Source: Dictyostelium firmibasis (taxonomy: Eukaryota; Evosea; Eumycetozoa; Dictyosteliales; Dictyosteliaceae). From it: DNA of 64,000 nucleotides. A model generated the notes under the pieces. That model searched no databases. It worked only from the letters and a program-made list of their open reading frames with translations, and was not told the DNA's origin. Made by a program: the position numbers and the translations under genes. The stretch is taken from assembly GCA_036169595.1 (NCBI GenBank), contig CM069770.1:1441001-1505000 (forward strand), given 5' to 3'. Positions 21,863 to 40,736 of this stretch are shown here, one piece after another; position 1 is the first letter of the stretch; each line of letters opens with the position of its first letter.

Positions 21863-22397
21863 TTTATTTATTTATTTTTCTTTATGTTATTTGTTTGATA
21901 TTTTTTTTTATTGGTGAATGAAAATATTTTTAAAAAAAAATCTCTTTTTTATAGTTTTTTTTTTTTGTTTAATTATTTTCTAAAAATAAATAAATAAAAA
22001 CTATAACCAGGACCAACTCCGTTTGAATTTTTTTTAATTAAAAAAAAACAAGAACTAATTTTTACTGGTAAAAACGGTTTGTTTTTTTTTTATATTTTTT
22101 TTTTTTTTTTTTCAAAAGAACTTCGGTTGTTGGTTTGTTTTTTTTTTAAAATTTCATCAAAATTTTCATAAAACTAACGGTTATGAAGTTTTTTTTTAAT
22201 TTAAAAAAACAGATAGTATAAACTATACACAATTAAAAAAACAAATAAAAAATTTTGTAAAGGTTTTTTTATTTATTATTATTAACAATTTTTTTTTAAT
22301 AACCTCTTCCAATTAGATAAGTTCGAACTTTTAAAAAACAATTTAATTTATTTTTTAAAAGTTTTGATAAAATTTTTTACACCATTTTTTTTTAATT
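21863..22397. other. Upstream region of saposin gene, up to the LTR
   Basis: Non-coding and AT-rich. It must contain the saposin gene promoter. An imperfect inverted repeat (GAACTTTTAAAAAAC with TTTTTTAAAAGTTTT) lies at about 22325-22375. The last four bases before the LTR, AATT (22394-22397), match the four bases after the far LTR. Confidence 0.55.
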
Positions 22398-22864
22398 TGT
22401 AATAATAGAGGTTGAACGTGGTTATAACGAAGTGGCTAAATATTGTCAACTTATTATTACAAATTATAATTATGAGTCCGAATATATTTATATAATTATT
22501 TTTATTATTTATTTATTATTACTTAATATTACTTTAGTTTAATATTTAATTTTAATATTTATTTATTTTATATTTATTTATTTTTATATTTATTTATTTT
22601 ATATTTTATTTATTTATTATATTTATTTATTTTATATTTTATTTATTTATTTTATATTTGATTGTAAACTGAAAGACTGCCGAAAATAAATAAATTTATT
22701 TTCTTTTTATACTGAGTCTTAAACGGTGACTCAATATAATTACGAGTAAAGAAGGATCCAAAAGAATGTTCTAGAACACAGCTGACGTTGAGATTACGGA
22801 TTATAATAAACGACATATTGATACATAATTAACTGATATAAATTATGTTACCAGTTCTATCACA
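22398..22864 (-). repeat. 3' LTR of the DGLT-A-like element
   Basis: 467 bp, TGTAATAATAG...TTCTATCACA on the plus strand, so it ends TG...CA. It is identical by eye to the other LTR (32290-32737 plus 34388-34406). A polypurine tract (AAAGGAGGGGTGAA on the minus strand, 22865-22880) lies directly inside it, as expected for the 3' LTR of a minus-strand element. Confidence 0.93.
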
Positions 22865-22883
22865 TTCACCCCTCCTTTAAATT

Positions 22884-39800: not shown

Positions 39801-40544
39801 AACTATAACTTCCTTTTCACCAACATACTAAATATCAAAGATCCAAAAACTAAAAACACAATGTTTAGATTTCATTCGAGATGCCTCCCTCTAAACTATC
39901 TCCACGAAAAACCATGCCCAATGTGTAATACTAACATGTCTATTGATCCATACGGTCACCTATTCTTTAGCTGCACAAAAACAAAAAACTTCATAAATAT
40001 TAACAAACTAAAAAATTTCGTCTTTGTGACAACAGGTAGACTTTCAAACTGGACGGTGGATAGAGCGATTGTAAATGGAAAACCAATTATCAAAATATTT
40101 CCAAAATTCAATAACAATACTCCAACCGATAACCAAATCAATCCTGACTACGGAATAGAAGCCTTCCACAAGCCTTACTTCACATGGTGTTATAAAGCCA
40201 TTAATTATGACTTAAACAGATCATATGCATACAATAATGTAATAGCATTAATCATGCATCACATATGGATATGGATTTGTAATCAATTGTATGGTAACAA
40301 AGAGCTACAAGATACCAATCTGGATTTTGAAATGCTGACAAACAAATGGCACCAACTAGCCTCTATGGAATACATCAAATTATTAAAAGAATATAAATTA
40401 TCGATGGCCAAAGAACCAGAAAGATTCAATGATATCAACTCTTATAATAATAATATAAAAATAATCAAAAACAGGATTTCAAAAAAATACTGTATATTAA
40501 GAAAATCTCTCCCTAATAATGTGATTGTGGACTTTTTCATATAA
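36867..40544 (+). CDS. TRE3 ORF2: AP-type endonuclease, reverse transcriptase, zinc finger
   Basis: 1225 codons, start MGLKMTINQWNVRGWS. The apurinic-type endonuclease occupies about residues 1-250 (NQWNVRGW, VVNELNADF, IAGDFNCLDF, RRLDRIYIS, LSDHNFIS). The reverse transcriptase occupies about 440-750 (NKSPGPDGITN, RRPITLANCIYKI, YDFEKAFDSISHDS, RGVKQGDPLSP, and the catalytic box QGFADDST). The C terminus has a CCHC-like motif (CPMCNTNMSIDPYGHLFFSC, about residues 1016-1036). It nicks the target and copies the element RNA at the nick. All key residues are present, so the protein looks functional. Confidence 0.93.
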   Translation: MGLKMTINQWNVRGWSTDRSFSQKTNLIDILSDKNTPTITVVNELNADFTAANLSFPGSIISVSSRGNGIGILNHNNNSIKITPKIIIEGRAILAEICINSLSISILAIYAPANPEKRKSFTEELRKIYNDLCLTMTEKIDIIAGDFNCLDFNDLNEEGQSENPDELASLIESIRFTNNLRDMDPEKKHTFLRIHKDQNQVVTRTITRRLDRIYISNSLIDFGNLNFQNIIPPSVDGTPLSDHNFISTGLLLNTTLQSSKRNRWKLKNTSILANPMLAKVDSILKDANQLNSDFPGSFGFNQLQSLISRIKLLYQEFQKQGDYNAKAITNNLKDLLQSDLRDYAYNALLAIKDSKKIDMKMRSDLRNYCEETSLKYISAKIKKRTLDFKLDAIKNDEGVTIRDQTGIENEFFNFYKTLYDLKPDSPREHIDMLKHWKFQQDESWTELDKDFSEEEIIEVINQLNPNKSPGPDGITNLFFITHKKKLAPLLASAFNDSLENPFKINKKHKEGLIITIPKKGDPELIKNRRPITLANCIYKIQSKTINNRLVKILPKVINTNQKGFVPGRFILDNIFTINETISYCNQKNLNGIITFYDFEKAFDSISHDSILRTLLHINIPYKITNLIMSLLTDSEARVEVNNNKTQPFIIKRGVKQGDPLSPTLFVLVIESLARVILEDNNITGLPLNDGPQREKFQGFADDSTSLVENKNQLKMVLKHFNTFCKATSSKLNLDKSASIVLGNTNYNGIEIPESNNPERYLGYFFTKNGIHRKMPEILRSIRASLLLWKTTGTTVKTITSILKAFALSKLTYFSYIEKYNENELKQINKIVEWFLSASNYKNSTGFNVINLMSARRSRYPMEQGGWNIWDIEQRQKAQRLWIINEFIHAQENNSLSSATHKSWNFQLTSNRITSQFLKSNIDDWNKSRTKRGIFRFAISIKNQSGLPLSLSEWYKEIDSKEERIPKTFLQDNLSMRGYNYNFLFTNILNIKDPKTKNTMFRFHSRCLPLNYLHEKPCPMCNTNMSIDPYGHLFFSCTKTKNFININKLKNFVFVTTGRLSNWTVDRAIVNGKPIIKIFPKFNNNTPTDNQINPDYGIEAFHKPYFTWCYKAINYDLNRSYAYNNVIALIMHHIWIWICNQLYGNKELQDTNLDFEMLTNKWHQLASMEYIKLLKEYKLSMAKEPERFNDINSYNNNIKIIKNRISKKYCILRKSLPNNVIVDFFI

Positions 40545-40672
40545 ATGTAAAAGCATCATATAATGAACATTAATTAAATTAACTATTAAAAAAATAATAA
40601 ACTTTATTATTGTTAAAGACTAAGGTCAAACAATAATCATTAATATTAAAAAAAAAAAAAAAAAAAAAAAAA

Positions 40673-40736
40673 CATGGTGATTAGAAATTCTAATCCCAAT
40701 AATATTAAAAAAAAAAAAAAAAAAAAAAAAAAAAAA
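40673..40736 (+). repeat. Second poly(A)-tailed fragment with a palindrome
   Basis: After the TRE3 tail there are 36 bp containing the palindrome GATTAGAAATTCTAATC (40679-40695) and AATAATATT, followed by another A tract (40709-40736). It could be the stub of a further retroelement or part of the TRE3 3' end. Confidence 0.5.

Follow-up and report, generated by a model that had tools for sequence, protein, structure and literature searches.

The window analysed here, a stretch of 64,000 nucleotides from Dictyostelium firmibasis, carries a single tRNA gene, an intact tRNA-Val(AAC) (found by ARAGORN and as the one match of an Rfam gathering search), and several classes of transposable elements are stacked and nested around it (Table 1). 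The 75 nt of this tRNA recur identically at 12 further places in the genome, and 16 of 17 tRNA-Val loci (the window and L018-L033) display a B-box-like motif at positions 35-40 on the 3′ side of the tRNA. The upstream side is occupied by a Ty3/gypsy LTR element (22398-34406, minus strand) with a DNA transposon in its coding region and a TRE5-like element in its proximal LTR, and two TRE3-type elements follow downstream. Furthermore, pieces of both SINE-like families described below, S and L, appear to be present, one of them as a probable older relic that lies just outside the interval originally delimited (22394..40736). Elsewhere in the window, positions 12001-14000 have a G+C content of 0.393, as compared to about 0.25 in their surroundings.

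Table 1. Features of the stack around the tRNA-Val gene (positions within the window)
Feature	Position	Strand	Basis
Probable S-tail relic (S-SINE or LINE partner)	22289..22366	-	local alignment
Target duplication AATT, left copy, 4 bp	22394..22397	.	flank reading
Distal LTR (3′ LTR), uninterrupted	22398..22864	-	LTR comparison
pol frame (RT, RNase H, integrase), stop-to-stop	22884..26165	-	Pfam domains; Ty3 match
DNA transposon, ends CACTAC...GCAGTG	26150..30739	-	ends set against L090, L141 (low) and L138 (high)
gag-protease frame, stop-to-stop	30678..32162	-	reading frames, Pfam
Proximal LTR (5′ LTR), outer part	32290..32738	-	LTR comparison
14-bp target duplication, left copy	32725..32738	.	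LTR comparison
TRE5-like element, no ORFs, 5′ end toward tRNA, poly(A) away	32739..34374	-	copy comparison
215-bp module, 5.5 copies, 100% matches	33181..34373	-	repeat search
14-bp target duplication, right copy	34375..34388	.	LTR comparison
Proximal LTR, remainder	34389..34406	-	LTR comparison
Target duplication AATT, right copy, 4 bp	34407..34410	.	flank reading
tRNA-Val(AAC) gene	34421-34495	+	ARAGORN and Rfam gathering search
External B-box-like motif	34533-34543	+	comparison of tRNA-Val loci
TRE3-type element, 5′-truncated, poly(A)	34570..35377	+	junction set against L110, L111
Second TRE3-type element, two frames, poly(A)	35378..40672	+	copy comparison; ORF2 match
L-SINE tail and poly(A)	40673..40736	+	30-nt tail word

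The stack is real. Although 5.5 identical modules and identical LTRs are difficult to assemble, an assembly artefact is extremely unlikely, given that a passage of the genome paper describes a long-read assembly with a mean depth of 199x (PMC11193728), that both the 14-bp and the 4-bp duplications are found where they belong, and that the same families behave alike elsewhere. None of the elements is displaced from the tRNA, and the sole other nest that we found, on C4, has a tRNA gene of its own, a tRNA-Asn. Our genome-wide searches score the best candidates only, such that the copy numbers given here are lower bounds.

Elements flanking the tRNA-Val gene

The LTR element had been predicted to end 14 bp upstream of the tRNA, and its right LTR indeed ends at 34406. 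Its two LTRs are 467 nt each and show 0 differences once the nested insert is skipped, and 4-bp target duplications are found in all four of the two-LTR elements for which both flanks were read (AATT in the window; CTTT, CCAA and TTCT in the others). The domains of pol come in the order reverse transcriptase, RNase H and integrase (Pfam), and its best match among solved structures is Ty3 Gag-Pol (7q5b, E 9.3e-119, residues 108-1011). A chromo domain behind the integrase is absent among Pfam hits up to E 5; a GPF word can be seen there by eye. Also by eye, a purine tract, AAAGGAGGGGTGAA, adjoins one LTR and would suit a polypurine tract, and TGGCGAC begins 1 nt inside the other LTR and would suit a primer site. 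At five tRNA genes (Val, Val, Lys, Thr, Asn) an LTR of this family is found 13-16 bp away, and both orientations occur. Judged by domain order and insertion position, the element can be classed as DGLT-A-like.

The DNA transposon interrupts the coding region and the reading frame of the LTR element; it entered after it. Of 73 matching rows in the genome, 31 (own copy included) reach an identity of 98% or more across 334 or more of 342 aa, and these near-identical rows cluster on C7, at C1:4.5-4.8 Mb and at the ends of C2-C6. One of them (C5:2383741-2384766) sits within the LTR element on C5, next to another tRNA-Val, and is oriented the other way relative to the LTRs. We considered the CACTA class for this transposon, which its CACTR-type ends would fit, but there is no clear target duplication at its ends, in particular no 3-bp duplication, and Pfam found no transposase in it.

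The TRE5-like insert, 1636 bp long, splits the proximal LTR at -46, and the 14 bp that it duplicated, CTGATATAAATTAT, are LTR sequence. The duplication spans -46 to -33 relative to the tRNA, which is where a poly(A)-tailed insertion within the LTR had been predicted (33-46 bp upstream). The LTR origin of the duplicated bases, together with the intact distal LTR, supports an order in which the LTR element came first and the TRE5-like element second; the reverse order is rejected, again because of that origin. The original prediction had placed both this insertion and the DNA transposon after the LTR element, and this part stands. The window copy is probably a non-autonomous derivative, as no sense frame of more than 48 aa is found in it and the two ORFs of TRE5 (with endonuclease, reverse transcriptase and zinc finger) are absent. 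A LINE with frames of up to 1163 aa among its copies has a similar tail: in a global alignment, 60 of 84 columns are identical (score 88, as compared to 53 for the best of 500 base shuffles). Local alignment of the two tails landed on an A-rich stretch and was uninformative.

On the other side, two TRE3-type elements had been predicted to start about 73 bp downstream of the tRNA. This is right for the first, which begins 74 bp 3′ of the gene at 34570, but not for the second, which begins at 35378, immediately behind the poly(A) of the first and 882 bp away from the tRNA. The second element has stop-to-stop frames at 35617-36867 and 36855-40544; its ORF2 matches LINE-1 ORF2p (8sxt, E 4.5e-48) and contains a reverse transcriptase domain (RVT_1, E 2.4e-36) as well as a weak endonuclease match (E 0.16). 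The L-SINE tail that follows was recognized by a 30-nt word with 134 occurrences in the genome at up to 2 mismatches, and the reversed word, used as a control, gave 0. Other copies of the second element's family sit within L-SINE sequence (L101, L105, L109; by eye), and on one reading the second element may have inserted into a resident L-SINE whose head was later lost. The pieces of the array join poly(A) to 5′ end with no visible target duplications between them, as they would had the truncated element, the full element and the SINE tail arrived as one template-jump chain. We regard such a chain as conceivable but rather doubtful, because the copies within SINEs make separate insertion a simple alternative, and because a 12-bp duplication is visible by eye at L105 when it is set against L114.

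Positions of TRE5-like ends and a second nest

In the passages available of one study, insertion is described at 13-33 bp upstream of tRNA genes for DGLT-A, at about 50 bp upstream for TRE5 and at about 100 bp downstream for TRE3, and 13% of the D. discoideum tRNA genes had been struck by both TRE3 and TRE5 (PMC5006619). The original prediction had assigned the window's elements to these families by their separate distances, and family-wide positions, which go beyond chance, support this. For the TRE5-like family we used 36 5′ ends carrying an exact 17-nt end motif, which leaves out L074 and L083-L087 (no exact end motif; L087 is a 3′ fragment). A tRNA gene on the expected strand lies 46-62 bp away from 23 of these ends, and 46-54 bp away from 21 of the 36, with many isotypes represented. 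Among the remaining 13 ends, two face, at 46 and 48 bp, a SINE head with an A box (L052, L081), two have an S-SINE between the end and the tRNA, five have the tail of another TRE5-type element next to them, and one (L070) the tail of the LINE that carries the S tail. TRE5-type tandems at L057 and L076 reuse the same target word. For three of the 36 ends (L053, L055, and L068 on the plus strand), neither a tRNA at the rule distance nor a recognized element accounts for the position; the end at L055 has a tRNA-Asn 76 bp away and lies on its 3′ side, and that at L068 has an inverted copy opposite.

Other known Pol III genes were considered as targets of the TRE5-like copies that lack a tRNA, and were rejected: at L052, L081, L053 and L086, Rfam, with an E limit of 0.5, yielded no more than five sub-threshold hits to miRNA families, all of them at L081, and L052 and L081 face the SINE heads.

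A second nest is found at the tRNA-Asn gene on C4. There, an LTR of the DGLT-A-like family lies 15 bp upstream of the tRNA (14 bp in the window), and within it a tiny TRE5-like insertion, a poly(T) run plus AAATTG, is flanked by two copies of CTGATATAAATTAT, 47 bp from the tRNA; AAATTG corresponds to the last letters of the TRE5-like element. Thus, in both nests the same 14 bp are duplicated, at exactly the same LTR nucleotides. We read this insertion site in 11 separate LTR copies. Where it lies at -46/-47 of a tRNA, it is filled in two of three copies, the third, at tRNA-Thr on C5, being at the right distance but empty. Away from -46/-47 it is filled in none of eight, even though seven of them carry the exact 32-nt word and the eighth deviates by a substitution.

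That both nests use the same 14 bp, although their spacing from the tRNA is not equal but 1 bp apart, would be expected if the TRE5-type endonuclease had a sequence hot spot in the LTR and the tRNA beside it were incidental. The eight empty sites at other distances speak against this, as does the constant distance that most TRE5-like ends keep from tRNA genes of many isotypes. Furthermore, no strong motif emerges from 18 distinct nick contexts (1.0 bit or less, with an A/T preference); duplications of at least 9 nt were seen at 20 of the 32 TRE5-like ends listed, some loci being listed twice. A hot spot without a role for the tRNA is therefore very unlikely.

The identical target duplication at identical LTR nucleotides could also mean that the two nests go back to a single event, copied by gene conversion or by mobilization of an LTR that carried the insert. 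However, the inserts differ in length (1636 bp as compared to a poly(T) run plus 6 nt), as do the spacing between LTR and tRNA and the flanks, and the window insert is present in only one of its two LTRs, whereas reverse transcription normally renders both LTRs alike. Gene conversion with a large deletion later on is conceivable, but we consider a common origin unlikely, and infer that the nests are separate events.

The original prediction had concluded that targeting must read distance from the tRNA rather than local sequence. The distance rule stands, but the exclusion of local sequence is too strong: because the C4 nest uses the same LTR nucleotides despite a spacing of 15 instead of 14 bp, local sequence seems to choose the base within a distance window. 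With two filled sites the numbers are small, and it seems that distance to the tRNA sets the window and local sequence the exact base.

Two SINE-like families

Genome searches with the stretches L081:728-965(-) and L052:606-965(-) recovered the S family and the L family; the best 40 of 311 (L081 stretch) and of 269 (L052 stretch) first-look candidates were scored. The S head matches one of the two L monomers at 84 of 101 positions and the other at 75 of 91. The tails of the two families differ, and both fold as hairpins. By eye, the heads show an A box word at position 9 as well as B-box words; Rfam reports no tRNA match in L052 and L081.

After fragments were dropped, 43 of 67 L rows and 66 of 96 S rows were kept, the query copy included in each list, and compared with 108 tRNA genes. 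A tRNA lies within 1200 bp of 11 of the 43 L rows, with the SINE downstream and on the same strand in all 11, and of 19 of the 66 S rows, with the SINE upstream in all 19 (17 on the opposite strand, 2 on the same). The head flanks of ten further L copies revealed a preceding tRNA on the same strand, 64-217 bp away, in seven cases, with one dubious and two without. Ten further S copies were taken in list order, skipping the query copy and C5:3411641 (head inside L129); for seven of them a tRNA lies 40-156 bp away on the opposite strand, two adjoin another S tail, and one has neither. In these flanks, the tRNA call '???(tt)' at L119 was left out and '???(gtag)' at L127 was counted. Pooled over this partial sampling, S is upstream in 26 of 26 and L downstream in 18 of 18 copies with a tRNA found, though stacked copies are not independent. 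One tRNA-Ser, shared by L122 and L134, has an S-SINE in front of it and an L-SINE behind (C5:3548342-3548684).

The S tail also terminates a LINE with a 1159-aa frame (L070), and upstream of a tRNA-Val at L080 a single stretch contains TRE5 modules, the last ORF2 residues of this LINE and the S tail. Because no LINE with the L tail was found among the loci compared, nor from the listed positions (100 of the 134 places of the tail word), it is position that argues for a partnership of the L-SINE with TRE3. As for the relic at the upstream edge of the stack, its local alignment with the S tail scores 62 (best of 300 base shuffles, 46), and from the coordinates it would have been about 41 bp from the tRNA-Val before the LTR element inserted.

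These observations make it reasonably likely that we are dealing with two SINE families that have similar tRNA-like heads and different tails and occupy opposite sides of tRNA genes: S (about 185 bp), some 40-65 bp upstream in opposite orientation and with the tail of a TRE5-type LINE, and L (about 345 bp, with a dimeric head), downstream in the same orientation at the positions of TRE3. The pair would amount to a natural tail swap, in which the LINE partner and not the head sets the side. The SINE heads would in turn serve as new targets, so that stacks grow away from the tRNA genes. If confirmed, the pair would be a natural experiment on how LINE machinery picks the upstream or the downstream side of a tRNA. 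Drawn from partial sampling, it would also be the most novel part of this analysis. It weighs against novelty that a passage of an earlier study tabulates SINEs, from RepeatMasker in default mode, for both D. discoideum (88) and D. purpureum (57), without naming families (PMC4683709). On the other hand, no title on dictyostelid SINEs was among the literature matches listed, in a search that left supplements and most subscription papers outside, and the D. firmibasis paper, in the part available, describes transposon annotation by tblastx with D. discoideum references (PMC11193728), which probably would miss SINEs.

A third repeated word, GGACGCTCAGCCC..., is found with a B-box-like motif near tRNA genes (L024, L026, L027, L118, L126, L127, L113) and is possibly one more SINE.

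tRNA genes as candidate landing pads

The tRNA gene very probably is a shared landing pad, with the Pol III complex as an address that each retroelement reads at its own offset and on its own side. A distance-based mechanism of this kind is already established in outline. According to the accessible part of PMC5911963, Ty3 and TRE5-A are linked to TFIIIB, with Ty3 targeting running via TFIIIB, and TRE5-A requires a B box, while TRE3 is able to use an external B box. By analogy with these relatives, the complex on the tRNA gene, with TFIIIC on the A and B boxes and TFIIIB just upstream, would be what is read in D. firmibasis. The offset would be about 14 bp upstream for the LTR integrase and about 47 bp upstream for the machinery of TRE5 type, which leaves the 5′ end toward the gene; that of TRE3 type would act downstream. 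Since the landing point of the LTR element is nearer to the tRNA than the TRE5 offset, its own LTR would come to occupy -47, and the next TRE5-type element would nest in it at one preferred base; landings of TREs on TREs would give tandems instead. Counting against a landing pad are the small number of filled nests, the empty site at the C5 tRNA-Thr, the use of the same nucleotides by both nests, the three unexplained TRE5-like ends, and the second TRE3-type start at 882 bp.

For TRE5-A, the distance rule itself is known by experiment, and nesting within an LTR adds a new instance of it, at two tRNA genes. As a natural case, it allows two layers of target choice to be told apart, a distance window that the Pol III gene sets and a base chosen locally, and it means that an LTR element can provide the landing site for an element of another class.

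The LTR element shares with DGLT-A and yeast Ty3 the Ty3/gypsy domain order, the lack of a detected chromo domain, and insertion upstream of tRNA genes in either orientation. However, D. discoideum is said, in the passages available, to have no full-length DGLT-A (PMC5006619, PMC5633606), and in D. firmibasis there are two-LTR copies with identical LTRs. The TRE5-like family resembles TRE5-A of D. discoideum in its position about 47 bp upstream, the 5′ end facing the gene, the poly(A), the tandem 5′ modules and tandem insertions per tRNA, and the window copy, at 46 bp, falls within the TRE5 rule of 40-54 bp upstream in reverse orientation; unlike TRE5-A, it has no ORF of more than 48 aa and is nested in an LTR. 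The TRE3-type elements have in common with TRE3 of D. discoideum the L1-type ORF2, the downstream position, the orientation of the tRNA and the presence of an external B box. The first, at 74 bp, is inside the D. discoideum range of 40-150 bp, and the second, at 882 bp and behind another element, is outside. The S and L families share the hairpin tail, the poly(A) and the many copies of known tRNA-derived SINEs with LINE tails, and by eye also the A/B-box head, and the S tail is found at the end of LINE copies as well; what differs is that two families with similar heads and different tails seem to take opposite sides of the tRNA. Finally, experiments with TRE5-A have demonstrated re-targeting of occupied tRNA genes and of loci with A and B boxes (PMC5391098), where, as in the nests described here, the site is set by how far it lies from the Pol III gene, irrespective of the DNA found there. 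Unlike in those experiments, the landing DNA was in our case brought by an LTR element, in nature and at two tRNA genes.
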